Below are positions 4,146 to 58,184 of a stretch of 64,000 bases of DNA, piece after piece. Every line of letters begins with the position of its first letter. The stretch's first letter is position 1. The DNA lies in assembly GCF_021653975.1 (NCBI RefSeq), contig NZ_JAJKFK010000003.1, positions 248,001 to 312,000 of the forward strand, given 5' to 3'. The notes below the pieces were generated by a model. It worked only from the letters and a program-made list of their open reading frames with translations. It was not told the DNA's origin and ran no database searches. Made by a program: the position numbers and the translations under genes. The DNA comes from Amycolatopsis sp. GM8 (GTDB taxonomy: Bacteria > Actinomycetota > Actinomycetes > Mycobacteriales > Pseudonocardiaceae).

Positions 4146-5267
4146 GTGACGCGCTTTCTGCACCGCGAACGGCAGACCCTCGACGAACTGCTGCCCGGCC
4201 TGGACGAACGACTGGCCGGCCTCCCACTGTCCACACTGGAAGGGCGGGAGAGCCCCGGGCCGGAACTGTTCCGCGAACACGGCGGGCCGGGGCTGCTCGT
4301 GCCGCGAGAGCATGCCGGGCTCGGGGTGGACCCGCTGCGGGCGGTGCGGGTGCAGCGGGCGATCGGCGCTCGGTCGCCGTCACTGGCCGTGGCCACCACG
4401 ATGCACCACTTCTCCATCGCCAGCCTCGTCGAGACGAGCGAGCACAGCGCCGGGTTCGAGTGGATGCTGCTGGAGGCCATCGCGCGCAGCGGGCTGCTGG
4501 TGGCGTCCGGGTTCGCCGAAGGCCGCACGGGGCAGGCGATCCTGGCCCCGACGATGCGCGCGCAGGAGCGCGACGGCCGGATCGTCCTCAATGGATCGAA
4601 ACGGCCGTGCAGCCTGGCCCGGTCGATGGATCTGCTCACCGCGTCGGTCGCGCTGGCCGATGGCCGGCTGGCCATCGCGCTCATCCCCAAGGACACGCCC
4701 GGACTGACGGTCAAGCCGTTCTGGGACAGTTTCGTGCTCGCCGGCGCGCAGAGCGACGAGGTGGTGCTCGACGACGTCGAGGTACCGCCGGACCTCGTGG
4801 TCCGCACCGAAGCCACCGCCGCGCGGCCGCTCGATGACCTGCAGACCACCGGGTTTCTCTGGTTCGAGCTGTTGATGTCGGCGGCCTATCTGGGGGCGGC
4901 GAGCGCGCTGGTGGAACGGGTGCTCGCCACGCCGAAGGCCGACGCGAGCGTGCGCGCCGGGGTGCTCGTCGAGGTCGAGGGCGCGATGGCCGCGGTCGAG
5001 GGCGTGGCCCGCGGGATGTCGGCCGAGCTGCGGGGTGAGGCGGCGTTCGCGCAGGCGCTGGTGTGCCGCTACGCGACCCAGGACGCGATCGGCCGCGCCG
5101 CCGGCCGCTGCGTCGAAGCGCTGGGTGGCATGGCGTACCTCGGTTCCGGCGACGTGGCCTACCTCGCGTCGGCCGCCGCGGCGCTGGCCTTCCATCCGCC
5201 GGCCCGGGCGCCGATGGCTCAGCCACTGTGCGACTACTACAGCGGAAGCCCACTGCGCGTGTCCTGA
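4146..5267 (+). CDS. acyl-CoA dehydrogenase-like flavoprotein
   Basis: 373 residues from GTG 4146, preceded by GGGAGGGG. The N-terminal helical domain, a mid beta-domain (GSKRPCSLARSMDLLTASVAL) and a C-terminal four-helix domain (AYLGAASALVERVL, then VEALGGMAYLGS) follow the ACAD plan. The C-terminus is divergent: the usual glutamate base and GTsEI-type ending are absent and the protein ends in a Pro-rich tail with PLCDYYSG. It may therefore catalyse an atypical FAD-dependent desaturation, oxidation or hydroxylation. It is the first of five closely spaced genes (25-bp gap, then ATGA overlaps) with a reductase, aminotransferase, SRPBCC protein and ligase. Confidence 0.78.
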   Translation: MTRFLHRERQTLDELLPGLDERLAGLPLSTLEGRESPGPELFREHGGPGLLVPREHAGLGVDPLRAVRVQRAIGARSPSLAVATTMHHFSIASLVETSEHSAGFEWMLLEAIARSGLLVASGFAEGRTGQAILAPTMRAQERDGRIVLNGSKRPCSLARSMDLLTASVALADGRLAIALIPKDTPGLTVKPFWDSFVLAGAQSDEVVLDDVEVPPDLVVRTEATAARPLDDLQTTGFLWFELLMSAAYLGAASALVERVLATPKADASVRAGVLVEVEGAMAAVEGVARGMSAELRGEAAFAQALVCRYATQDAIGRAAGRCVEALGGMAYLGSGDVAYLASAAAALAFHPPARAPMAQPLCDYYSGSPLRVS

Positions 5268-5292
5268 TCCCCCAGCACTTTCGAGGAGACCT

Positions 5293-6321
5293 GTGAAGCG
5301 CACGATCCTGCTGACCGGCGCCAGCGGTGTGGTCGGTGCCGCCCTGCTCCCCCGCCTGGCGCGGCACCGGGTCATCTGCCTGGTCCACCGGAACAAGCCC
5401 GAAGCGGCCGAGATCGTGCTGGGGGACCTGACGATCCCGGGCCTGGGATTGGACTCCTGCACGTACCGGAACCTGGCGCGCGAGGTCGACGTGGTCGTGC
5501 ACTGCGCGGCGACCACGGACTTCAGCGCCGGTGCCGACCCGACTCGGGAGCTCAACGTGACCGGCACGGCGCGCCTGCTCGAATTCGCCGCCGACGCGGG
5601 AGCGACGCTGCACTACGTCAGCAGCGCGTTCGTCGCCCGGAGCGAGGCGAGCCGCGCCGACATCGGGGACGGCACCGCCGATCCGCGGGACTACCTGGCG
5701 TCCAAACGCGCCGCCGAACAACTCGTCCGCGACAGCGGGATACCGGGCACGATCCTGCGGCCGTCGGTGGTGATCGGCGATTCCGCCACCGGCGCCATCG
5801 CGAAGTTCCAGGCCCTGTACCTGCTTGCCGCCGCGATCGTGCGAAAGACGTTGCCGCTGCTGCCTTTGCGGCCGGACGACCGGGTGGACCTGGTGCCGCA
5901 GGACGTGCTCGCCGACGCGGTCGCCGCGGTGGTGAAGCACGACGTGCGCGGGGCCGAACACTGGATCACCGCGGGGGAAGCAGCGCTGACCGCCGGCCGG
6001 GTGGTCGAGCTGATCGTGGCGGCGGGCGACCGCGCCGGGCTCGACGTGCGCGCGCCGCGGCTGGTGGACCCGGAGATGGTCGACCGGCTCGTCCGGCCCG
6101 CGTTCCTGGAGCATCTGCCGCCGGTGACGCGCCGCCGGTTCGAGGACATGCTCGCGATGACCGCGCTGGTCGCCGGTGCCACGGCGTTTCCGGCGACGCT
6201 GGCGGAGATCCCGGGCTGCCGGCCCATCGAGACGCCCGTGCTGGCGTGCGCGTTCGACCGGTCGATCGGCCATCTGATCGGTGCGATGGGCTGGGGCCGG
6301 TCCGGGGAGAGCGCCGCATGA
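5293..6321 (+). CDS. thioester-reductase/NAD-epimerase-type SDR
   Basis: 342 residues from GTG 5293, with GAGGAG just upstream. The N-terminal Rossmann motif is TGASGVVGAALLPRLA (residues 8-23), followed by VVHCAATTDF, YVSSAFV and the catalytic YLASK (Y134, K138). The extended-SDR layout with RPSVVIGDSATGAI resembles the NAD_binding_4/male-sterility group that reduces acyl thioesters to aldehydes or alcohols. Next to an adenylating ligase and a class III aminotransferase, reductive release to an aldehyde is plausible; a sugar- or steroid-type dehydrogenase cannot be excluded. Its stop overlaps the next start as ATGA. Confidence 0.75.
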   Translation: MKRTILLTGASGVVGAALLPRLARHRVICLVHRNKPEAAEIVLGDLTIPGLGLDSCTYRNLAREVDVVVHCAATTDFSAGADPTRELNVTGTARLLEFAADAGATLHYVSSAFVARSEASRADIGDGTADPRDYLASKRAAEQLVRDSGIPGTILRPSVVIGDSATGAIAKFQALYLLAAAIVRKTLPLLPLRPDDRVDLVPQDVLADAVAAVVKHDVRGAEHWITAGEAALTAGRVVELIVAAGDRAGLDVRAPRLVDPEMVDRLVRPAFLEHLPPVTRRRFEDMLAMTALVAGATAFPATLAEIPGCRPIETPVLACAFDRSIGHLIGAMGWGRSGESAA

Positions 6322-7562
6322 CGCTCGATCAGCGCCACGTTCCGGACGTCTACCGCCGGCACCTGAGCGTCGGCCGGGTGCGCCTGGCGACGGTGACCGG
6401 TGGCGCGATGGAGGTCCGCTCGGCCGGGAGCCGCGTGTACGACGCGGACGGCGTGGAGTACCTGGACTGCGGCGGCTACGGGGTTTTCCTTGTGGGGCAC
6501 TGCCATCCCCGCGTCGTCGACGCGGTGGTGGCGCAGATCCGCACCCACCCGCTGGCCACGCGGCTGCTGCTGGAACCGGCCGCGGCCACCGCCGCCGAGG
6601 CGCTCGTCTCGGTCGCCCCGGCGGGGCTGCCGCGGGTGCATTTCGTGAATTCCGGCGCGGAGGCGACCGAGACCGCGATCAAACTCGCCCGCGCGCACGG
6701 GAAAACCCGGTTGGTGTCGATGGTGAACGGGTTCCACGGGAAGACCGCGGGTGCGCTGAGCCTGACCGCGAACGGCCTCTACCAGGATCCGTTCCGGCCG
6801 CTGCTCCCGGACGTGTGCCACGTGCCCTACGGCGACGCGGCCGCCCTCGGCGCGGTGCTGGCCGCTGCGCCGGGCCGGGCGTGCGTTTTCGTGGAACCCG
6901 TGCAGGGCGAGGGCGGCGTCGTGTTCCCGCCGCCGGGGTACCTCCGGGAAGTCGCCGGCTTGTGCCGCGCCCACGGTGCCCTGCTGGTGCTCGACGAGAT
7001 CCAGACCGGGCTCGGCCGCCTCGGTCATTGGTGGGGAGCCGAGCGCGACGGCGTGGCGCCGGACATGCTGCTGGCCGGCAAGAACCTCAGCGGCGGCGTG
7101 ATTCCCGTTGCGGCCGTGCTGGCCACCGACGAGGTTTACGCGCCGTTCAACAAGGATCCGTTCCTGCACAGCTCGACGTTCGCGGCCGCGCCGGTGGCGA
7201 TGGCCGCGGCGGCGGCCACCGTCGCGACCATCCGGGACGAAGGTCTGGTGGAGCGCGCCGCGCGCCTGGGCCGCCGTTTGCTGCCCGCGCTGGGCCGGAT
7301 ACTCGACGAGCACTGTCCACAATTGACGGTCGAAGTCCGCGGCGCCGGGCTGCTGATCGGGATCGAACTGGCCGACGAACACGTCGCCGGGGACTTCGTG
7401 CTCGAACTGATCAACCAGCGGGTGCTGGTCAACCACTCGCTCAACGCCCACCGCGTCATCCGGCTGACGCCACCGGCCGTGCTCACGGAGTCCGATGTGG
7501 ACCGGTTGCTGACGGCTTTCGCCACCACCGCCAGTGTCGTCGGGAAGGATCACCAGAGATGA
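6318..7562 (+). CDS. class III PLP-dependent aminotransferase
   Basis: 414 residues. The class III signatures are clear: VHFVNSGAEATETAIKLAR, the FHGKT loop, LLVLDEIQTGLGR for the PLP N1 aspartate, and the Schiff-base lysine in MLLAGKNLSGG (about K255). Enzymes of this group (acetylornithine, GABA, beta-alanine, 4-aminobutyrate-type) transfer amino groups to aldehydes or ketones. Coupling (ATGA on both sides) to a putative thioester reductase suggests amination of an aldehyde product, though ornithine-type substrates are possible. Confidence 0.85.
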   Translation: MTLDQRHVPDVYRRHLSVGRVRLATVTGGAMEVRSAGSRVYDADGVEYLDCGGYGVFLVGHCHPRVVDAVVAQIRTHPLATRLLLEPAAATAAEALVSVAPAGLPRVHFVNSGAEATETAIKLARAHGKTRLVSMVNGFHGKTAGALSLTANGLYQDPFRPLLPDVCHVPYGDAAALGAVLAAAPGRACVFVEPVQGEGGVVFPPPGYLREVAGLCRAHGALLVLDEIQTGLGRLGHWWGAERDGVAPDMLLAGKNLSGGVIPVAAVLATDEVYAPFNKDPFLHSSTFAAAPVAMAAAAATVATIRDEGLVERAARLGRRLLPALGRILDEHCPQLTVEVRGAGLLIGIELADEHVAGDFVLELINQRVLVNHSLNAHRVIRLTPPAVLTESDVDRLLTAFATTASVVGKDHQR

Positions 7563-8035
7563 GAAGCGTCCGGCTGGAAGCCCTTGTCCCACAAGGGAAC
7601 GCGGCCGTCCTGTTCGAACGGATCAGTGATTTCCCCCGCTACGCCGACTACACCGACGCGGTCCGCGAGGTGAGCATCGACCGCACCGACGGGGATCTGG
7701 TGACCTCCACCTGGTCGGTGAACTTCCGCAACGGCATCCTCCGCTGGCGCGAGCGCGACCAGATCGACGCGGACGCGCTGCACATCGTGTTCGAGCAGAT
7801 CGACGGTGACTTCGAGCGGTTCGACGGGAGCTGGCGGGTCACGCAGACCGGCGAGGACGCCACGGTGGTCTTCGTCGCCGAGTTCGATCTCGGCATGCCC
7901 AGCCTCGCCGCCATCATCGACCCGATCGCCGAACGAGCGCTGCGGGAGCACACGCAAGCCGTCCTGCGCGGCCTGCTCGGCGAGCACATCATCTTCCCCG
8001 GCCCCGATCGGCAACCACAGGAGATCCCCTCATGA
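7559..8035 (+). CDS. SRPBCC (COQ10/polyketide-cyclase-like) protein
   Basis: 158 residues with the START/SRPBCC outline: an N-terminal strand, the FERISDFPRYADYTDAVREV helix-loop, a curved sheet (WSVNFRNGILRWRERDQI) and a long C-terminal helix (IAERALREHTQAVLRGLLGEHI). Such folds bind hydrophobic ligands and in secondary metabolism act as aromatase/cyclases or ligand carriers. It overlaps both neighbours by ATGA, so it is made together with the aminotransferase and the ligase. It may fold or cyclise the pathway intermediate; no catalytic residue can be assigned with confidence. Confidence 0.75.
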   Translation: MRSVRLEALVPQGNAAVLFERISDFPRYADYTDAVREVSIDRTDGDLVTSTWSVNFRNGILRWRERDQIDADALHIVFEQIDGDFERFDGSWRVTQTGEDATVVFVAEFDLGMPSLAAIIDPIAERALREHTQAVLRGLLGEHIIFPGPDRQPQEIPS

Positions 8036-9711
8036 CCACGTCCGAACCGGCCTTCCTGAGCCAGTACGCGCCGACCCGGTTCCGCCGGGCGATCACCCCG
8101 TTCTCCCGGGTGCCGGCGACCGCGCGGATGGGCGAGAGCTGGCACGTCGCCGCCGAACGCGCCGGCGGCCAGCGGGTGATCATCGACCGCCCGGCTGACA
8201 TCGACCCGGCCGGCCCCACCGACCGGGACTATGCGGGGTGGGCCACGCTGGTCGATCAGGCCGCCAGCTGGCTGTACGAGGCGGGCGTCCGGCCGTGGGA
8301 CCGGGTCGCGATCCTGAAGTCCAACCACCTCGACGTCGCCATCCTCGGCTGCGCCGCCGCGCGGCTGGGCGCGATCCCGGCCATGCTCGCCTGGACCCAC
8401 ACTCCCGAGTTCGCCCGCGCGCTGCTGACCCGGCTCGAACGGCCGTTCCTGATCACCGACCAGGCCCAGCTGGCGTCGTGCGAGCTGGACCCGGAAACCC
8501 TTGCCACGCTTACCACTCGCACCATCGCGGTCGACGGCAACGACGGCCGCCCCGACGTCACCGCGCTGGACGACCTGCGCGGCGCGGGCTCCGCCCCGGT
8601 CCACCCGCGGGAGCCCGAGGAACCCATGGTGATCACCCACACCTCCGGCACGACCGGCATCCCGAAGCTGGTCATGCATTCCGCGCAGTCGATCCACTCG
8701 CTGGCGCTCGTCGAGGCCGAGCGGTGGCCGCTGGTCGCGCTGCGCCCCAGCGACACGATGGCCTACTGCGACCCGTTCTGCCACCAGCGGATGGCGACCG
8801 CGCTGGCGGCCATGGTGACCGTGACGCCGCGGATGCTGATGCTGTCCGAGCCGCAATCACCGGGGCTGAAGCAGTTGCTCGTGGACAACGCGCCCACCGT
8901 GGTCGAGACACTGCCGAACATCTATCTGTCGTGGGAAAGTCTCGCGCGCGACGAAGCCCGCCCGTTCCGCAATGTCCGGGTGTACATCAACTCCTTCGAC
9001 GCCATCCACACCCGCACCATCCGGACCTTCCTCGACGCCACCGACCGGCGCGTGCCGCTGTGGATGCAGTCGTGGAGCCAGAGCGAGGCCGGGGCCATCG
9101 TCATCCGGCCGTACCTGCGTTCGTCGGTGCGCCGCGTCGGGCACCGGCCGCCGCCGACCCAGGTGCTCGGCTGGCCGGTGCCGTTCCTCGGCAAGATCCG
9201 CGCCGTGGACCCGGACACCGGCAAGGAGGTGCCGCGCGGGCAGGTCGGGCTGATCGAGATCGCGCAGCCCGGCCGTTCCCTCGCCTACGTCGGGGAACAG
9301 GACCGGCACGATCTCAAACGCGACGGCTGGTGGTGGAACACGGGCGATCTCGGCGTGATCAACCGGTTCGGCGCGGTCCGCCTCGTGGACCGCGAGATCG
9401 ACCGGATCCCCGGCGCCAGCGCGATCGAGCTCGAAGACGTGCTGCTGGACCGGCTCCCGCAGACGACCGAAGTGGTCATCCTCGCCGTCGAGGGCATGAA
9501 ACCGGTGCCCGTGCTCAGCACCACCGACGACCTGCCGCTCGACCCTATCGAATGGAAGGCCGCCGTCGCCGATCTCCCGGAGCTGGCCGACCCGGTCCAG
9601 GTGCGCTGGGCCGAATTCCCGCGCACGGCTACCTGGAAGATCCGCCGGGTCGCGCTGCGGGAACAGCTTTTCTCCGGCACCCGTCCGATCGGGATCGGCC
9701 GCTGGACCTGA
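8032..9711 (+). CDS. adenylate-forming ligase (AMP-binding, acyl-CoA-synthetase-like)
   Basis: 559 residues. The P-loop VITHTSGTTGIPK, the late motif WWNTGDLGVINRFG with VDREIDRI, and the C-terminal lysine in TATWKIRR (K536) identify an ANL-superfamily enzyme that activates a carboxylate as acyl-AMP. The C-terminal PRTATWK replaces the usual PRTxxGK. It ends the cassette and abuts the convergent LysR gene with no gap. No carrier protein or ketosynthase is encoded nearby, so the acyl acceptor is probably CoA or an amine/thiol supplied elsewhere. Confidence 0.83.
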   Translation: MTTSEPAFLSQYAPTRFRRAITPFSRVPATARMGESWHVAAERAGGQRVIIDRPADIDPAGPTDRDYAGWATLVDQAASWLYEAGVRPWDRVAILKSNHLDVAILGCAAARLGAIPAMLAWTHTPEFARALLTRLERPFLITDQAQLASCELDPETLATLTTRTIAVDGNDGRPDVTALDDLRGAGSAPVHPREPEEPMVITHTSGTTGIPKLVMHSAQSIHSLALVEAERWPLVALRPSDTMAYCDPFCHQRMATALAAMVTVTPRMLMLSEPQSPGLKQLLVDNAPTVVETLPNIYLSWESLARDEARPFRNVRVYINSFDAIHTRTIRTFLDATDRRVPLWMQSWSQSEAGAIVIRPYLRSSVRRVGHRPPPTQVLGWPVPFLGKIRAVDPDTGKEVPRGQVGLIEIAQPGRSLAYVGEQDRHDLKRDGWWWNTGDLGVINRFGAVRLVDREIDRIPGASAIELEDVLLDRLPQTTEVVILAVEGMKPVPVLSTTDDLPLDPIEWKAAVADLPELADPVQVRWAEFPRTATWKIRRVALREQLFSGTRPIGIGRWT

Positions 9712-12977: not shown

Positions 12978-13547
12978 ATGCCCGAGCACCACCGCGCGGA
13001 CGCCCGGCGCAACTACGCACTGATCCTCGCCGTGGCCGAGGAGGAGGTCGCCGTCCACGGCGCCGGCGCCTCGCTGGAACAGATCGCCCGCACGGCGGGC
13101 GTCGGCTCGGCGACCGTGCGCCGGCACTTCCCCACCCGCCGCGCCCTGCTGGAGGCCGTCTCCCGCAAACGGATCGACGCCCTGTGCGGGCGCGCCCGCG
13201 AACTGGACGGCCAGGGGGACAGCCGGAGCGCGCTCCTGGAATGGCTGGGGGAGGTCGTGACCTACTGCGTCTCCGCCCGGGGCCTGGCACCCGCGCTGGC
13301 CTACGACGGCACCGGGCCCGACCCGGCGCGCGAGAACCAGTGCTCGGCGGCACTCGAAGAGGCGGGCAGCCCCCTGCTGCGCCGCGCCGCCCAGGATGGC
13401 GCGGTGGCGAAAGGCGTCACGGTCGCGGACCTGATCGCGCTGATCGTCGGCATCGCACTGACCACCGAGCACTACCCCGACCCCGCCGCCCAGGCAGACC
13501 GGCTGTTCCGGCTGGCCATGGCGGGAGTGAGCCCGGCTGACCGATGA
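12978..13547 (+). CDS. TetR family transcriptional regulator
   Basis: 189 residues; ATG 12978 is preceded by GGAGG at 12966-12970. The N-terminal HTH reads SLEQIARTAGVGSATVRRHFPTRRALLEAV, and the C-terminal helical ligand domain contains LAPALAYDGTGPDPARENQC. The domain resembles the SACE_7040/TetR_C_33-like group often found next to NmrA-like oxidoreductases. It probably represses the divergent NmrA gene and itself through the palindrome pair at 12906-12952. Confidence 0.87.
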   Translation: MPEHHRADARRNYALILAVAEEEVAVHGAGASLEQIARTAGVGSATVRRHFPTRRALLEAVSRKRIDALCGRARELDGQGDSRSALLEWLGEVVTYCVSARGLAPALAYDGTGPDPARENQCSAALEEAGSPLLRRAAQDGAVAKGVTVADLIALIVGIALTTEHYPDPAAQADRLFRLAMAGVSPADR

Positions 13548-13577
13548 GTTCGGGGACCGCCGGTGGTCTGTCCGGTC

Positions 13578-14099
13578 ATGACTGATCCGACACCTTCCGA
13601 AACCAAGAACCTGGACCGCTACGGCTCCCCCGCACTCGAGTGGAGCCGAGCCCACGACGCGCTGGCCGGCGACCCGACGGCCGACGTCACGTGGTTCCTC
13701 GGCACCTGCCGGCCGGACGGCACACCGCACGCCGCCGGGGTCGGCGCGCAATGGCGTGACGGCTCCCTGTTCTTCACCAGCAACCCCGACGCCCGCAAGG
13801 CCCGCGATCTGGCGGTCAACCCGCGCTGCACGATCTCCGTGCGGCTGCCGGGGATCGACCTCGTGCTCGACGGGTCCGCGGAGCGGGAAACCGATCCGGC
13901 GACCCTCGAACAGGTCGCCGCCGGATACCGCGATGGCGGCTGGCCGGCCGAGGTCGGCAACGGTGGGCTGACCGCGCCGTTCAGTGCCCCGAGCGCCGGG
14001 CCGCCGCCCTGGTTCGTCTACCGCTTCACCTTCCACACCGTGGTCGGTGTCGCCACCGCCGAGCCGCACGGCGGCACCCGGTGGCGGTTCGAACGCTGA
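13578..14099 (+). CDS. pyridoxamine 5'-phosphate oxidase-family (flavin split-barrel) protein
   Basis: 173 residues from ATG 13578. The segment WFLGTCRPDGTPHAAGVGAQW, then FFTSNPDARKARDLAVNPRCTISV, is the F420/FMN-binding split barrel of the PNPOx superfamily. VYRFTFHTVVGV with the closing W-R-F strand completes the barrel. Such proteins reduce small substrates with F420H2 or FMN, or bind haem. It is 30 bp downstream of the TetR gene and may be cotranscribed with it. Confidence 0.8.
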   Translation: MTDPTPSETKNLDRYGSPALEWSRAHDALAGDPTADVTWFLGTCRPDGTPHAAGVGAQWRDGSLFFTSNPDARKARDLAVNPRCTISVRLPGIDLVLDGSAERETDPATLEQVAAGYRDGGWPAEVGNGGLTAPFSAPSAGPPPWFVYRFTFHTVVGVATAEPHGGTRWRFER

Positions 14100-14159
14100 A
14101 CCTGGTAGACAGGCCCCCTCCATTGTCCGTATGTTGAACTTCGATTTCGTCATCCGGAC

Positions 14160-15107
14160 ATGATGGAGGAGCCCGTGATCGCCGCCGATCGCGTGATCAT
14201 CAGTACCGCCGTGACCGGCTCGGTCCACGTGCCGTCGCAGAGCGACCATCTTCCGTTGAGCCCCCAGGAAATCGTCGCGGAGTCGCTGGCCGCGGCGGAG
14301 GCCGGGGCCGCCGTCATCCACCTGCACGCCCGGCATCCCGACGGCCGCCCGGCCTTCGAACCGGCCGTCTTCGAGGAGATCATCCCGCCGATCGCCGAAC
14401 AGTGCGACGCGGTCATCAACATCACGACCGGCGGGGCGTCGTCGATGACGATCGAGGAGCGGCTCGCCGCGGCGACCCGGTTCAGCCCCGAGCTGGCGTC
14501 GCTCAACATGGGGTCGATGAACTTCGTCTTCTCCGGTATCGCGGACAAGGTGACCCACTGGAAGCACGCGTGGGAGAAGCCGTATCTGGAGAACACTTAC
14601 AGCCACCCGTTCATCAACTCGTTCGACCAGATCGAGTACGCCTTGCGCGAGCTGGGCGAGCGGGGCGGCACGAGGTTCGAGTACGAGTGCTACGACATCG
14701 GGCACCTGTACACGCTCGCCCATTTCGCCGAGCGCGGGCTCGCCAAGCCGCCGTTCCTCATCCAGGGCGTTTTCGGGGTGCTCGGCGGGATCGGCGCCGA
14801 CCACGCCAACCTCACGCACATGGTGACGATCGCGGACAAGCTGTTCGGCGACGAGTACCACTTCTCCGCGTTCGCCGGCGGGCGCAACCAGATGTTGTTC
14901 TGCACGCACAGCGCCTGGCTGGGCGGACACGTGCGGGTCGGGCTGGAGGACGGCCTCTACATCGGCCGGGGCGAGCTGGCGAAGAGCAACGCGCAACAGG
15001 TGGGCAAGATCCGGGAGATCCTCGCCGACCTGGGCCGGCCGCTCGCGACCCCGGACGACGTCCGGCGGATGCTGGCCCTCAAGGGCGCCGCGAACACCCG
15101 CAACTGA
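14160..15107 (+). CDS. beta-keto acid cleavage enzyme (BKACE, former DUF849)
   Basis: 315 residues. VIISTAVTGSVHVPSQSDHLPLSPQEI, the zinc motif VIHLHARHPDGRPAF, NITTGG, and YECYDIGHLYTLAHF identify the Kce/BKACE family, which condenses acetyl-CoA with a beta-keto acid to give a CoA ester plus acetoacetate-type products. I list ATG 14160. GTG 14175 is an alternative because GGAGGAG lies within the first codons, though only 3 nt before it. An SDR starts 12 bp after the stop, so the pair probably oxidises a hydroxy acid to a beta-keto acid and then cleaves it. Confidence 0.87.
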   Translation: MMEEPVIAADRVIISTAVTGSVHVPSQSDHLPLSPQEIVAESLAAAEAGAAVIHLHARHPDGRPAFEPAVFEEIIPPIAEQCDAVINITTGGASSMTIEERLAAATRFSPELASLNMGSMNFVFSGIADKVTHWKHAWEKPYLENTYSHPFINSFDQIEYALRELGERGGTRFEYECYDIGHLYTLAHFAERGLAKPPFLIQGVFGVLGGIGADHANLTHMVTIADKLFGDEYHFSAFAGGRNQMLFCTHSAWLGGHVRVGLEDGLYIGRGELAKSNAQQVGKIREILADLGRPLATPDDVRRMLALKGAANTRN

Positions 15108-15118
15108 GAGGAAAACCC

Positions 15119-15877
15119 TTGTCCGACAACGCATCCGGGCTACTTGCCGGCAAAGTCGTGCTCGTCGTCGGTGCCAGCACCGGGATCGGGGCGGATGCCG
15201 CGCGGATCTTCGCCGAGGAAGGCGCTTCGGTCATGCTGGCCGCGCGTTCGGCGGACACGCTCGCGGCGCTCACCGAGAAGCTCGCCGGGGATGGGCACGA
15301 CGTCGCCTACACCGCCGGCGATGTCAGCGTCGCGGCCGATGTCGCGCGGTTCGTCGGCGACACGGTCGCCCGGTTCGGCCGGCTCGACGGCGCGTTCAAC
15401 AACGCGGGCATCAACCAGTACGGCCGCCTGGACGAAGTGTCCGAAGTGGACTTCGACCGGCTGATGGCGGTGAACGTCAAGGGAACCTGGCTGTGCCTGC
15501 GCGAGGAGGTCCGCGCGATGGACGGCGGTTCGATCGTCAACACGAGCAGCATCGGCGGGATCCGCGGCAGCACGGGGCTCGGCGCGTACCAGGCGTCGAA
15601 GCACGCTGTCATCGGCCTGACCCGCACCGCGGCGCACGACTTCGGACCGCTCGGCATCCGGGTCAACGTGCTCGCCCCCGGCCCCACCGAATCTCCGATG
15701 CTGAAGCAGTGGCGGCTGGACGATCCGGCAGCTGTCGAGCGCCGGATCAACGCCGTCCCGCTGCGCAAGGCCGGCACGCCGGCCGAGGTGGGCAATGCCG
15801 CCGCCTGGCTGCTGAGCGACCGCGCGAGTCACATCAGCGGTGCCGTGCTCCCGGTGGACGGTGGCTTCACCGCCTAG
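15119..15877 (+). CDS. short-chain dehydrogenase/reductase partner of BKACE
   Basis: 252 residues from TTG 15119, with GAGAGGAAAA upstream. It is a classical SDR: VVGASTGIGADAARIF cofactor motif, FNNAGIN, the Ser of NTSSIGG, YQASK catalytic pair, and LAPGPTESPM. A C-terminal glycine-rich PVDGGF ending is typical of FabG-like members. Gene order behind a BKACE is known from carnitine and related hydroxy-acid catabolic loci, where an SDR forms the 3-keto substrate. Here that role is inferred from context. Confidence 0.85.
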   Translation: MSDNASGLLAGKVVLVVGASTGIGADAARIFAEEGASVMLAARSADTLAALTEKLAGDGHDVAYTAGDVSVAADVARFVGDTVARFGRLDGAFNNAGINQYGRLDEVSEVDFDRLMAVNVKGTWLCLREEVRAMDGGSIVNTSSIGGIRGSTGLGAYQASKHAVIGLTRTAAHDFGPLGIRVNVLAPGPTESPMLKQWRLDDPAAVERRINAVPLRKAGTPAEVGNAAAWLLSDRASHISGAVLPVDGGFTA

Positions 15878-15889
15878 CCGCGCAGCCGC

Positions 15890-16339
15890 CTAGCTCCGGC
15901 GGCGGCCCTCGCGCAGCATCCCGGCCGCCTGGGTGATCCGCCGCTGCCGCGTTTCGGGCTTCTTCGCGTCTTCGATCCACAACGTGTAGGCGCGCTTGTG
16001 GCTGTAGGACAGGGATTCGAAGAACTTCCCGGCCGTCTCGTCCGCGGCGAGCGCTTCGGCGAGATCGGGCGGCACGGTCACCTCACGCGGTTCGGTGTCG
16101 AGTTCCAGTTCGACGTCCACCTGGTCGCCGGCGGCGATCCCGGCGCCTTTGCGGTGTTCGGCACTGACGGGCAGCATGAACTGCCCGCCCATCGATCCGA
16201 CGCTGCTGCGGTAGCCGTACCCGTTGATCGTGACGCGTACCGCCGGGCGCTTGCCGCCGAGCGCGGCGACGACGTCGTCGGGCACCGGGATCCCGGTCGC
16301 GGTCTTGCCGTTCTGTTGCAGTTCGGCGGTGAATCTCAC
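15890..16339 (-). CDS. DUF1905/YdeI-like protein
   Basis: 149 residues starting at GTG 16339, which overlaps the upstream hydrolase stop as GTGA. The N-terminal half (VRFTAELQQ..., IPVPDDVVAALGGKRPAVRVTINGY) is the DUF1905 beta-barrel. The C-terminal half (VPPDLAEALAADETAGKFFESLSYSHKRAYTLWIEDAK) is the YdeI/OmpD-associated helical domain. The combination is common in actinobacteria, with no established activity. It is translationally coupled to the alpha/beta hydrolase. Confidence 0.82.
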   Translation of the reverse strand: MRFTAELQQNGKTATGIPVPDDVVAALGGKRPAVRVTINGYGYRSSVGSMGGQFMLPVSAEHRKGAGIAAGDQVDVELELDTEPREVTVPPDLAEALAADETAGKFFESLSYSHKRAYTLWIEDAKKPETRQRRITQAAGMLREGRRRS

Positions 16340-17136
16340 GGCTCCTCCCGCAGGAACCGGGTCAGCACGGGCGCGATCGCCTGCGGTTTCACCATGTGGT
16401 TCTGGCCAGGCAGCACCTGGTGCCGGGAATCGGGCAGCGCGGCCGCCACCGCCCGCACGGAGTTGAGCATCCACTGTGGACTCTTGCCGCCCGCGGCGGC
16501 CAGCGCCGGGATCTTGACCGACTCGTACTTCCCGGCGGGCAGCGGGTGGCCGTGCTGCCCCTCGTCCATGATCGTGAGGTCGTACGGGATCGTGTGCGCG
16601 ACGCCTTTCAGCTTGGCCCACACGGGAAACACCGGCATCACGGCGAGCATGAAGCCCGGCACCCCGACCTGCCGCATGAACATCTTGACCGCCTCGGTGC
16701 GCCGTCCCGCGGCCACCGCCGCCTCGACCCGGGCGGGATTGCCCTCCGGCAGCGGCTCACGGCTGTCGTCGACGATGAACGGCGGTTCGTACACGGCCAG
16801 TTTGGTGATGCCGGGGATCCGCGACGCCGCCTCGAGCGCGAGCCCCGCGCCCGAGGAAATCCCGTACACGTAAGCGGTGCCACCGGCCTCTTCGATGACG
16901 GCTTCGAGGTCTTCGACTTCGCGCTCGACGGCGTACGGCAAGGTGTTGCCGCTCTCGCCGCGGCCCCGGCGGTCGTAGGTGTAGACGGTGAAGTCGCTCT
17001 TCAGCTGTTCCGCGAGTGGCCGGCTCGGGCCGGACGCCCGGTAGCACAACGCGCCGTCCACCAGGACGACGGCCGGTCCCGCGCCGGATCTTTCGTACGC
17101 GATGGCCGTGCCATCGCGGGAAGTCACAGTTGTCAT
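16336..17136 (-). CDS. alpha/beta hydrolase
   Basis: 266 residues. The oxyanion strand is VVLVDGALCYR, the nucleophile elbow is GISSG (S94), and QVLPGQNHMVKP supplies the late histidine. YTYDRRGRGESGN is the usual strand-4 region. It resembles uncharacterised esterase/peroxidase-like hydrolases. It is divergent from a TetR gene with a 21-bp palindrome between them, so it is probably the repressed target, with the DUF1905 gene as second cistron. Confidence 0.83.
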   Translation of the reverse strand: MTTVTSRDGTAIAYERSGAGPAVVLVDGALCYRASGPSRPLAEQLKSDFTVYTYDRRGRGESGNTLPYAVEREVEDLEAVIEEAGGTAYVYGISSGAGLALEAASRIPGITKLAVYEPPFIVDDSREPLPEGNPARVEAAVAAGRRTEAVKMFMRQVGVPGFMLAVMPVFPVWAKLKGVAHTIPYDLTIMDEGQHGHPLPAGKYESVKIPALAAAGGKSPQWMLNSVRAVAAALPDSRHQVLPGQNHMVKPQAIAPVLTRFLREEP

Positions 17137-50823: not shown

Positions 50824-51150
50824 GCGTGGCGCGCGTTCGCCCCTCCGCGGGCTTAGTCGTCCCCCGCGGCGCGTGTTGGTCCTCACGCGCGCGTGTTTGC
50901 CGATCACGCGGGCGTATTGGCCCCTCCTGCGGGCGTGTTTGCCCACCACGTCGGTGAGTTGGCCGGTGGCGTCGGTGAGTTTGCCCGCCACGGCGGTGAA
51001 TTGGCCCGCCGCGCGGGCTTCACCGCGCCGGAAGCAAACCCACCGACGCCGGGAGCAAACTCACCGACGCGAGAAGCAAACTCACCGACGTGGGGCGCAA
51101 ACTCACCGACGTGGGGCGCAAACACGCGCGCGGGGAGCGAACACCGGGGC
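50824..51150. repeat. 21-bp repeat array with central inversion (array 2)
   Basis: The left half has units like GTCGGTGAGTTTGCCCGCCAC; the GCC anchor recurs at exact 21-bp steps (50899, 50920, 50941, 50962, 50983, 51004) with looser copies before. The right half has the complementary unit (GCAAACTCACCGACG) at 51034, 51055, 51076, 51097 and 51118, again 21 bp apart. The two halves can pair over more than 100 bp. It lies between CopA and the luciferase-like operon. The repetitive frames inside it are not convincing genes. Confidence 0.88.
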
Positions 51151-54259: not shown

Positions 54260-54322
54260 CTTACGGACTGTGATCGCGTGCTACCATCCGGGCCTAGCTG
54301 ATTTGTCGGAGGCTGGGGGCAC

Positions 54323-56066
54323 GTGAACTCTGACACGCCGGGAAATCTCTTTGCCGCGCCGGAAACGAGTGGCCCGGCACGGCCGATTGCCATGCTGGGC
54401 AACGGGTTGCCGGTGCACGGGGTGGTCCGCGGTGGCATGGGCGAGGTTTTCCTGTGCGGTGACGGCGATTCACCGGAACCGCGGATGGCCCTCAAGACCT
54501 TCCAGCAGCGCTTCTTCTTCGACCGCGAGGTGCGTCGAGCGTTTGTCCGGGAAGCGGTGGTGTGGACCCGCCTATCGGGCGAGGCGCATATCCTGCCGGC
54601 GGTCGGCATCGACGACATCGACGGCCGGCCCTTTGTGTGGATGCCGTTCATTCCCGCGGGCGAAACCGGTCCGTCTGTCCGCGATCGGCTCCTAAACGGT
54701 CCACTCGGGGCCGAGGACGCGCTGTCGGTGGCACTGCAGACCGCGACGGGCATGATGCTCGCGAACCGCGAGGATCCCTGGTCTGGTCCACGGCGACCTG
54801 AAACCCGAGAACCTGCTGGTGTTCAAGGACTGGGTGTACATCACCGACTTCGGCCTCGCCAAAGGGATCGCCGACAGGACAGCCGTCGAGTTGGACAGCA
54901 CCTGGGCCTACCGCGCGCCGGAATGCTGGGACCACCCCTCGACGCCAGCGGCGGACGTCTACGCCTTCGGCACGATCCTGTACGAACTGCTGACCGGCAG
55001 GACGCCGCATCTCGCCGACACCAGGCAGGAGTGGCGGTCCGCCCAGCGGTCGGGGGCGATCGCGGTGCCACAGACCGAGGACGGCCTGGAACGCGACCTG
55101 CTGGCGTTGGCACCGCGTTGCCTCCAGGTCGACCCGGCTGAGCGACCCGCGGATTTTGAGGCTGTAGAACGACTCGTGCGGGCGGTGGGCGCCTCGCACC
55201 GGCCGGAACTCACCGATCGGATCACGCGGTGGAGCGCCGGCGTCGGACAGCTGCTGGACGCCGGACGGTCCGCGGTGCTCAGCAATCTGCTCGTGCGGAG
55301 CCTCGCCAGGATGGGCGAGTTCGAACTCGCGCTGGCGGAGATCGACCGAGTGCCGCCGGCGGACCGCACCCCGGTTTTGCTGATGTCGCGCGGCAGTGTG
55401 CTGTCGTCGCTCGGGAGGGACACCGAGGCGCTGGCCGAGTTCGACGCGGCACTGGCCGCGGGACTATCCGCCGAGGACAGCGTCAAGTGCCGGAGCGAGT
55501 ACGCCCTTTCCCTCAACCGGCTCGGCCGCCACCAGGAGGCGGCCGAGCTGTTCATCCGGCTGATGGTGCGGGCGACGCCGCGGCAGCACGCGGAACTCGC
55601 GGTCAACCTGGCCACCGTCTACCTCGATGACGACCGGCCACGAGAGGCGTTGCCTCATCTGGTCCGCGCGGCGGCGGAGCAGCCGGACCTCTGGCAGCTG
55701 TGGGCGGGCATCGGGCAGGCCCGCGAGGCGCTCGGCGATTTCGGCGCCGCATTCACGGCGTACCACCGCGCGCTCGGCGTGGCGCCGCAGGAACCCCGGC
55801 TCCAGATCATGCTCGCCGCGGTGTGCATGGACCACCTCGGTGACTGGGACACCGCGTTCGCGGCGTTGACGGCCGCACACGATCAGGGTTCGTCCTCGGC
55901 GGAATGGTTTGTCCGCTATCAGGCCTGCAATCTCCGGCTCGGCCGGACCGAGGAGTTCGCCGCGCTGAACGACGTGATCCGCCGGCAGGTCGGCGACGAG
56001 GAGCTGGACCGGCGACTCCGCATGGCGAGCCGCCTCGCACGGCACGACCCGAGAGGAGGCGTATGA
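54323..56066 (+). pseudogene. Ser/Thr protein kinase with C-terminal TPRs, interrupted by a +1 frameshift
   Basis: Translation from GTG 54323 gives a kinase N-lobe: glycine loop GVVRGGMGEVFL (residues 33-44), lysine in MALKTF (K58), helix-C Glu in REAVVW. After W153 (codon 54779-54781) one extra base, for example T54782, shifts the frame. From 54783 the other frame continues exactly: VHGDLKPENLL catalytic loop, TDFGLAKG, YRAPECW, SADVYAFG-like AADVYAFG, then about six TPRs to 56066. A repaired protein has 580 residues. All catalytic residues survive, so this is a recent lesion or a sequencing error. The next gene overlaps by ATGA. Confidence 0.85.
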
Positions 56067-57184
56067 GGTTCCCGAAACTGCCGAGGCCCGGGAAACAGGC
56101 GGACGCGGGCCGGCTGCTGCCGACGATGCCGTTCATGAACACCCGGTTCTACGTCGAGGCGCAGGCCTTCTCGCTGGACTTCTTCTACGGCCTCGACCTG
56201 CCCGACTACGCCGACAAGTTCGAGTGGGGTTTCGCGGAGGCCACCGGTCAGATCCGGGCCCGCCTGCCCATGGCGACGATGCGGTCGACGCCGTTCTACT
56301 TCACCCGCTGCCCCGGCTGCGGCGGACATGTGCTGACCAACCGGGACGTCGGCAAGGACCTGAGCTGCCGGTGGTGCGGGGTGTCCGCACCGACCGCGGT
56401 GCGCCACGACAAGCGGCTCGACCGCCTCGAAGCGCTGGCGCTCGACAAGCTCGGGAAGCGGGTGACGGACCTTTCCGGCCAGATGTGTGTCGTGATCGTC
56501 GATGCGGCGGACGCGAAGCAGGCGAGGCGGGTCCGCTCGATGGGAGCGGAGCTCGGGTTCAGCGAACTCGAGCCGGACAACATGGCCGTGCGGCATCTCC
56601 GCGTCGAGGGGTACCGGCGCGGATTGGTCTCGCCGGACGGAGCTTTCCTCGTGGCGTTGCGACAGGTCGCCGCCCCCGGAAGTCGCGGATACGCGGACGA
56701 GACTCCCCCGGTGGTCGATCGTCTGATCATCAGACTGCGGCAGGAACTGGGGGCGGTGAACTCCCTTTCGCTGACGTACTCCCCCGACGATGACGACTAC
56801 CTGGTGCTGCTCTACGAGGGTCGCCACGACGAGGTGCTCGCCGGCCTGCGGGCACGGGTCGCCGAGAACCCGGTCAAGGAAGAGACGATGGCGCTCCTGG
56901 GCAGAATGCTTCTCCAGCACGGCTCCGACGCCGAGGCGGAGGAGGTGATCAGCCGGGGAGTCCGGCTGTGGCCGGCCGGCGCGGACTGGTGGCGGCTGCT
57001 GGGTGAGCTCCGGCTGAGGTCCGGCCGGTTCGGCGATGCGGCGGAGTCGTTCGAGCGCTCGCTGGGTATCGATCCCCACCAGGCCGACGCCATGGCGCTG
57101 CTCGCCCAGTGCCACCGCGAACTCGGCGACGTCGACCGGGCCGAGGCTCTCGAAGCGCGAGCCAGGACCATCGGCTGGGGGTAG
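56063..57184 (+). CDS. zinc-ribbon and TPR protein of the kinase module
   Basis: 373 residues. After a conserved-looking N-terminus (MPFMNTRFYVEAQAFSLDF) comes a zinc ribbon with CPGC (C83, C86) and CRWC (C102, C105). A central alpha/beta segment follows (MCVVIVDAADAKQARRVRSMGAELGF, FLVALRQVAAPG), and the C-terminal ~110 residues are TPRs (VISRGVRLWPAGADWWRLLGELRLRSG, SFERSLGIDPHQADAMALLAQC). The start overlaps the kinase stop. The ribbon-plus-TPR content recalls the accessory parts of PknG. I do not recognise a named family. Confidence 0.72.
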   Translation: MRFPKLPRPGKQADAGRLLPTMPFMNTRFYVEAQAFSLDFFYGLDLPDYADKFEWGFAEATGQIRARLPMATMRSTPFYFTRCPGCGGHVLTNRDVGKDLSCRWCGVSAPTAVRHDKRLDRLEALALDKLGKRVTDLSGQMCVVIVDAADAKQARRVRSMGAELGFSELEPDNMAVRHLRVEGYRRGLVSPDGAFLVALRQVAAPGSRGYADETPPVVDRLIIRLRQELGAVNSLSLTYSPDDDDYLVLLYEGRHDEVLAGLRARVAENPVKEETMALLGRMLLQHGSDAEAEEVISRGVRLWPAGADWWRLLGELRLRSGRFGDAAESFERSLGIDPHQADAMALLAQCHRELGDVDRAEALEARARTIGWG

Positions 57185-57197
57185 GTGCGGAAACGTG

Positions 57198-58184
57198 ATG
57201 GAACTCGTGGTGACCAAGCTCGCCGGCTCGCTCGCCAAAGAGCTCGCCGGCCCGGCCCGGCGCAAGCTGACCGACCTGGCGCTGGGCGAGCGTGACAGCC
57301 GGGCGCTGGAAGACGTGTGCCGTGGCGCGTTGTGGCGTGCCGTGTACGAGATGGAAGACGACGGCGTCGGTCGTGCGGAGCTGGAGCACACGCTGGGCCT
57401 GCTGGAACGCCTGGTCGCGGACGTGGCTCCGGCCGACATCCCGTCGTTGATCACGACGGAGTCGCCCGACGCGCCAACCCTGGCGCGGTGGCGGCGTCAC
57501 GCCCGGGAGCTCGGGCTGGATCCCGAAACCTTCCCGGTGCCGTTCGACACCGTCGTCGCGCGCACGCTCCGGCTCATTCCCGAGGAACTCACCCGCGTCG
57601 CGGGCAGGCCGGACAATCCGCTGTTCGGGCAGGTCGTCCTGGCCAGGCTGGAACAGCTGGGCGCCAACCTCGCCGCGGTGAGCATGCACGACGGCCTGTC
57701 GAGGCTGGTACCGCTGTCGGCCGGGCTGCGGGAGGTGCTCAGCCACCCCTACGAAGCGTGCCGGGCGTCCGGGCGGGCGTTCGTGACCCCGGATCTGTTG
57801 CTGGCACTGGCTTCGACCGAGCCGGTGGGCTCGTGTCTGGCGGCGGCGAGCCCGGGCCTGGACGCCCGGCTGGTCGCCCAGCTCCGCGAGTACCTCACGA
57901 CCACCGACACCGGACCGTTCCAGCCCTTCGACTGGGACGAACGCGCGGACGTGCTTCGCGCGCGGCAACTCGCGTGGGCTGCCCAGGTACCCGCCGTCAC
58001 CGGGTTGTTCATGCTGCGGGGTGTGCTCGACACCCCGTCGAACACCCGCCGGCAGCTCGCCGCGTGGCTCGGCCCCGTGTTCGACCGGCTGTGCGACCTC
58101 GCCCGGACCCGCAGTCGCGCCACGGCCACCCCGTCCGGCACACCCGGTTTGATCTTCCCGGGGCCGGGGGGAGCCCTCGACTGA
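57198..58184 (+). CDS. all-helical protein with Clp-N-like segment, kinase module
   Basis: 328 residues; ATG 57198 is chosen, GTG 57195 is equally possible. The N-terminal helix set (LVVTKLAGSLAKELAGPARRKLTDLALG, ALEDVCRGALWRAVYEM) resembles helical N-domains of NACHT/STAND-type signalling proteins. Around residue 178, SAGLREVLSHPYEACRASGRAFVTPDLLLALAST is similar to the Clp-N repeat. No enzymatic motif is visible. It follows the zinc-ribbon gene after 13 bp and is probably an adaptor or effector of the module. Confidence 0.65.
   Translation: MELVVTKLAGSLAKELAGPARRKLTDLALGERDSRALEDVCRGALWRAVYEMEDDGVGRAELEHTLGLLERLVADVAPADIPSLITTESPDAPTLARWRRHARELGLDPETFPVPFDTVVARTLRLIPEELTRVAGRPDNPLFGQVVLARLEQLGANLAAVSMHDGLSRLVPLSAGLREVLSHPYEACRASGRAFVTPDLLLALASTEPVGSCLAAASPGLDARLVAQLREYLTTTDTGPFQPFDWDERADVLRARQLAWAAQVPAVTGLFMLRGVLDTPSNTRRQLAAWLGPVFDRLCDLARTRSRATATPSGTPGLIFPGPGGALD

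Follow-up and report, generated by a model that had tools for sequence, protein, structure and literature searches.

What kind of system is encoded by three adjoining genes for a Ser/Thr kinase with tetratricopeptide repeats (TPRs), a zinc-ribbon protein and a helical protein on one contig of Amycolatopsis sp. GM8? The genes occupy positions 54323-58184 on the plus strand of a 64,000-nt stretch of NZ_JAJKFK010000003.1 (the window, meaning this whole stretch), and their third-position GC is of the coding type in all three (Table 1). An initial annotation had described gene 1 as a kinase with TPRs and gene 2 as a CxxC-CxxC ribbon protein with TPRs, joined to each other by an ATGA overlap and to gene 3 by a 13-bp gap. 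These descriptions agree with the profile matches (Pkinase at 4.4e-20 and several TPR models for the downstream part of gene 1, TPR_16 at 7.8e-17 for the C-terminal TPRs of gene 2), with the cysteine pairs C83/C86 and C102/C105, and with the overlap at 56063-56066 and the gap at 57185-57197. Our best explanation, to which we give about an even chance, is that a core of kinase, TPRs and ribbon acts through a Clp-N-like adaptor to control an effector that can be swapped, probably in immunity. The core would be a kinase-TPR-zinc-ribbon-TPR assembly, encoded by two genes in the window and fused into a single chain in Rhizobium; the partner protein would combine a common C-terminal Clp-N-like adaptor with an N-terminal domain open to exchange, which is an unclassified helical domain of ~160 residues in the actinobacteria and, in Rhizobium, a predicted lipase-type alpha/beta hydrolase. 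At the level of sequence, gene order, a fusion, the common adaptor, the domain swap, rarity and kinase decay in both actinobacterial copies are shown.

The fusion was found among 72,556 plasmid records. The front part of gene 2 matched two of them, both from Rhizobium phaseoli and near-identical, and the downstream piece of gene 1 matched five, namely the same two at 98% coverage and three from Streptomyces in which the kinase domain alone was aligned (34% coverage). In plasmid pRphaN261d of R. phaseoli (L038, 6012-9005), kinase, TPRs, zinc ribbon and TPRs form one open chain of 997 residues, with the kinase at 42-294 and a CPEC motif at ~706. The first part of this protein aligns with the pieces of gene 1 (31.7% over 429 columns) and the last part with gene 2 (27.1% over 351). 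The proposal that the three genes form a module is borne out by this fusion of genes 1 and 2 and by the order of the genes, which is kept in Kibdelosporangium; fusion and gene order argue that genes 1 and 2 form one functional unit.

Overlapping the fused gene upstream is a gene for an alpha/beta hydrolase; its product has an AHSMGG motif and ~170 further residues. The protein falls in the alpha/beta hydrolase superfamily by its matches to Abhydrolase_6 (6.2e-9, 37.3 bits against a cut-off of 26.3) and DUF676 (23.0 against 20.3). Its C-terminal half was matched by the gene 3 profile at 13.8 bits over gene 3 residues 163-317, a score reached by none of 500 shuffles (best 7.4); the best of 38 other open reading frames (ORFs) scored 7.3 bits, and four other hydrolases, tested by their C-terminal parts, scored below 0 or not at all. 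With two candidates scored, this half was the sole match (E 0.036) that the gene 3 profile gave across the whole 1.07 Mb Rhizobium plasmid. Judged by these comparisons, gene 3 and the Rhizobium hydrolase have a common C-terminal adaptor half, in keeping with the earlier view of the third protein as an adaptor. Searched against plasmids, the Rhizobium half found itself alone. The N-terminal domain of gene 3, which occupies the place of the hydrolase, is a candidate effector or signalling domain; for gene 3, Pfam, NCBIfam and PADLOC offered no credible family.

The initial annotation had further noted a Clp-N-like segment in gene 3. When the adaptor was compared with the Clp-N repeats of the window genome, its score was reached by 0 of 200 shuffles for the C-terminal half of gene 3, 0 of 200 for the Rhizobium half and 1 of 200 for the Kibdelosporangium half, whereas in the same control for the N-terminal halves 40 and 50 of 200 shuffles reached the score. 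In hhalign, a three-row adaptor alignment scored 26.4 against Clp-N; column shuffles (n = 60) reached at most 17.6, and the N-terminal halves scored 14.4. The signal is weak (probability 17, P 0.0015). The curated Pfam family Clp_N (PF02861) gave no match to either gene 3 or the Rhizobium hydrolase, and a scan of the whole genome for Clp_N, which gave 11 matches at E <= 1, did not pick up gene 3. The C-terminal half of gene 3 (~residues 163-317) therefore probably bears a remote Clp-N resemblance, distinct from Clp_N membership, so that the earlier statement is probably right for a weak resemblance. Elsewhere in the window genome (contig C12, 1079055-1079429; L044, L046), a 239-residue protein carries two Clp_N repeats without an AAA+ domain, placed after a region that looks helix-turn-helix-like by eye.

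One other actinobacterial copy was found, in Kibdelosporangium aridum, with the gene order of the window. Its gene 1 is fragmented by stops and deletions, and the catalytic loop is gone; gene 2 has lost its first half, and gene 3 is open, with 59% identity to the window gene 3 over 323 residues. The ratio of nonsynonymous to synonymous substitution rates between the two copies is 0.26-0.65 (five segments, two overlapping), as expected if both copies mostly evolved under selection. With a gene 3 alignment, strain DSM 43828 gave the one locus in a genome contig collection of 84,980 species, a scan that relied on two peptide patterns alone and that distant copies may escape; a gene 2 scan of the same collection returned no loci. 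The expected co-occurrence was seen at both other loci with a gene 2 relative, each of which has the kinase or its remains (n = 2 other loci). Genes 2 and 3 were not found to occur mostly without the kinase: the single full-length relative of gene 3 adjoins the Kibdelosporangium kinase remains and gene 2.

Searches of related genomes gave the same picture of rarity. Gene 3 was present in 1 of 61 relatives, its own genome, and its profile matched 18 of 397 genomes of the order, 17 of them weakly (E 7.5e-5 to 0.0099 apart from its own genome). Three of these matches were opened and one looks real, a relative of the N-terminal domain alone on a 3.6 kb contig from the same family (L062; 29% over 170 residues), which had no match among plasmids. 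There (1497-2309), the domain stands without the adaptor, and the next residues (GREGRVRTLTALY) recall by eye the start of a STAND nucleoside triphosphatase (NTPase), perhaps decayed. For gene 2, the front part, a ribbon profile and the whole protein were used in separate searches. The front part matched 3 of 249 family genomes, namely its own, Kibdelosporangium (G183) and a spurious one (G168) in which the 29% match lies antisense to a longer ORF. The ribbon profile matched 1 of 396 genomes of the phylum and 4 of 394 of the class, three of the latter weakly (E 0.004-0.009), one of which (L065) was on opening a local alignment of 48 columns. The whole protein matched in 24 of 394 genomes, beyond its own mostly by TPR-only or weak stretches; one of the 24 (L009/L037) showed no ORF match on opening.

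The initial annotation had overlooked a break in the kinase gene of the window. Gene 1 lies in two frames: the N-lobe stays in register to ~54778, and the reading frame switches just ahead of the catalytic loop. The GC frame plot shifts phase at the change, with one later 150-base window (at 55050) deviating. The upstream part gives weak kinase matches (e.g., 1.1e-11 to the PD-T4-6 model), and the motifs expected of an active kinase are found in the window pieces as well as in the Rhizobium protein. Apart from the break, all three genes have open frames and normal codon bias, so the break is either of recent date or an error of sequencing. With its broken kinase and the ordinary neighbours listed below, the window copy is probably inactive or cut down to its second and third genes, unless the frame change is such an error or is programmed. 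A programmed change, by which full kinase would be made only under certain conditions, would account for its falling exactly between N-lobe and catalytic loop and for the codon bias kept on both sides; given that the Rhizobium relative has a single open frame there and that the Kibdelosporangium decay is of an ordinary kind, we consider it very improbable. The module could also be a relic that no longer works in the window genome, with gene 3 persisting by chance or for an unrelated use. Both the frame change and the state of the Kibdelosporangium copy, in which gene 3 stays open beside the damaged genes 1 and 2, fit this account, but the open frames and normal codon bias of the remaining window sequence do not, and it leaves the original role of the module unexplained; we hold it to be quite unlikely.

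Table 1. Positions of the module features in the window
Feature	Position	Strand	Remarks
Gene 1 start	GTG at 54323; GGAGG at 54308-54312	+	
Gene 1, upstream part	54323..54778 (end approximate)	+	kinase N-lobe: GGMGEV loop, ALK lysine, FVREA helix; weak kinase matches
Gene 1, downstream part	54780..56066 (start approximate)	+	different frame; HGDLKPEN, DFG, APE, then TPRs
Gene 2	56063..57184	+	zinc ribbon C83xxC86...C102xxC105, middle region of unknown fold, C-terminal TPRs
Gene 3, N-terminal domain (~residues 1-162)	57198..57683	+	helical; occupies place of hydrolase in Rhizobium protein
Gene 3, C-terminal half (~residues 163-317)	57684..58184	+	shared adaptor; probably tandem Clp-N-like

What the module is for is suggested by its surroundings. 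In K. aridum (L039), it is flanked by a NACHT gene (4949-8284, minus strand) and by an nSTAND1-WD40 gene (13330-17088, plus strand), the latter ~2.4 kb on. The 7.5 kb after the Rhizobium locus hold a DDE_3 transposase and the Lamassu genes LmuA, LmuB and LmuC. Relatives of the hydrolase part alone occur in 13 other plasmid records, four of which were opened. In Acetobacter, the relative is fused to GAAD within a GAP1-N1/DO-GTPase1/DO-GTPase2/GASH system, and in Acaryochloris it precedes an NB-ARC-TPR gene. Its relatives in known conflict systems mark the hydrolase as a movable part. Because of the STAND or Lamassu neighbours at two of the three loci and this company of the hydrolase, the purpose is most likely immunity against phages or other invaders, and the neighbours likewise favour the earlier suggestion of a regulatory or defence module. 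The Lamassu genes of pRphaN261d (L038, 9072-16489) are unannotated and adjoin transposase genes; LmuB is also matched weakly by the mad3 model (2.2e-12), compared with 1131 bits for its own model. The Acetobacter orientalis system (pAOF1; L068, 6001-12226), a GTPase-centric conflict system with a hydrolase-GAAD effector, is annotated mostly as hypothetical.

Several observations weigh against the proposed role. There are just three independent loci, with the kinase open in one, and around the window copy lie ordinary genes (FMN reductase, HxlR, glyoxalase, DUF3048 and glycosyltransferase). Phages, viral contigs and a defence library gave no match beyond generic kinase models. The other two opened hydrolase relatives have no conflict-system partner by Pfam or annotation. 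Aligned with the whole hydrolase in hhalign, the gene 3 profile reached a probability of just 3.5 (E 0.012), and the predicted structures are poor (mean pLDDT 48 and 52). The C-terminal half of gene 3 has a weak profile resemblance to the Clp_N repeats of ClpC and ClpB, but the module differs from these in having neither an AAA+ ATPase nor a curated Clp_N match, and the glutamate of the ClpC TEH motif, which we take to be the residue numbered E32/E106, aligns with a leucine in gene 3. The ClpC N-domain binds phosphoarginine (PMC12583610); as that glutamate is not kept, gene 3 as a phosphoarginine-reading adaptor is not favoured.

These points bear on a rival explanation, in which the genes would form an ordinary regulatory unit of stress or metabolism with a Ser/Thr kinase that adjusts a cellular process by phosphorylating the product of gene 2 or gene 3. 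TPR-bearing kinases are common regulators, the window neighbours are metabolic, and the phage and viral searches found no phage-linked relative: the downstream part of gene 1, gene 3 and the Rhizobium ribbon part had no match among phages (nor gene 3 among plasmids), and the viral contigs scanned contained no new module members. Such a unit would not be expected to show so patchy and rare a distribution (gene 3 in its own genome alone among the relatives, the gene 2 profile in one genome of the phylum set), decay in both actinobacterial copies, or a hydrolase and neighbours of conflict type. We regard it as unlikely, and return to the effector-controlling core.

The module resembles several known systems in part. 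In PknG, the rubredoxin-like CxxC part lies N-terminal to the kinase. With PknG the module has in common a kinase with C-terminal TPRs and the CxxC pairs, and the initial annotation had seen in it the PknG parts list split over separate genes. That parts list is indeed the same, but the ribbon (gene 2 residues 83-105) comes after the kinase and TPRs, in the fused protein as well, and gene 2 has a further middle region and TPRs of its own, beside an adaptor partner. As the order of parts differs, membership is not supported, and a split PknG system is hardly to be expected. The kinase domain matches the models of PD-T4-6, a stand-alone defence kinase, and of MADS Mad6 in PADLOC (1.2e-41 and 2.3e-37, mad6, for the Rhizobium kinase). 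These matches are confined to that domain, and the TPRs, ribbon and adaptor partner lie outside them.

Closer in layout are systems with adaptor-coupled effectors. In GTPase-centric (GAP1) conflict systems with GAAD adaptors, the effector shares its chain with a small helical adaptor, which couples it to the core (eLife 2020, PMC7159879). The module likewise has effector and helical adaptor in one chain, and the same kind of alpha/beta hydrolase sits on GAAD in Acetobacter; it differs in its kinase-TPR-ribbon core, in place of GTPase/GAP1, and in an adaptor that is Clp-N-like instead of GAAD. Effector-associated or Death-like adaptor systems carry swappable effectors, including alpha/beta hydrolases and S/T kinases, on common adaptors (eLife 2021, PMC8195603). 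The likeness lies in swappable effectors on common adaptor domains; those systems are centred on STAND, MoxR-vWA or caspase partners, whereas the module core is itself a kinase. The two sources also mention kinases with zinc ribbons that occur in GAP1-N2 systems next to genes for PP2C and vWA proteins, and a vWA protein to which ClpN repeats are fused (PMC7159879, PMC8195603). Among the proteins scanned at the three loci, which do not include every neighbour, there was no DO-GTPase or GAP1 and no MoxR ATPase or vWA protein, and no GTPase, GAP1, PP2C or vWA family was found among the module proteins or scanned neighbours. No description of the module came up in searches of open-licence PMC papers.

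If the effector-controlling core works as proposed, the TPR-ribbon scaffold would sense an insult, the kinase would phosphorylate itself or the partner, and the adaptor would dock the partner on the core. The N-terminal domain might thereby be freed or activated, and the cell arrested or killed, in Rhizobium by lipid attack. More tentatively, the module could be a kinase-switched counterpart of STAND/NLR immunity, in which the kinase-TPR-zinc-ribbon-TPR sensor replaces the STAND NTPase and fires interchangeable effectors via an unfoldase-free Clp-N-like adaptor; the effectors would then be the lipase-type hydrolase or a new helical effector domain. If the proposal holds, bacterial effectors coupled to adaptors would be fired by a kinase core as well as by the switches known so far (STAND NTPases, GTPases, MoxR-vWA), and Clp-N-like folds would gain a docking-adaptor role outside unfoldases. 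With the intact Rhizobium pair, the idea is open to a direct test, and the window copy illustrates the breakage of such modules.

The window contains no tRNA and no Rfam match. No empty site was seen: the DUF3048 neighbour was found in one of three genus relatives searched, and the other 12 queried window genes had no match within the 19.9 kb covered at that site. Farther upstream, between a copper-type ATPase gene and the next gene (50865-51142), the window carries a degenerate tandem array of ~21-base units.

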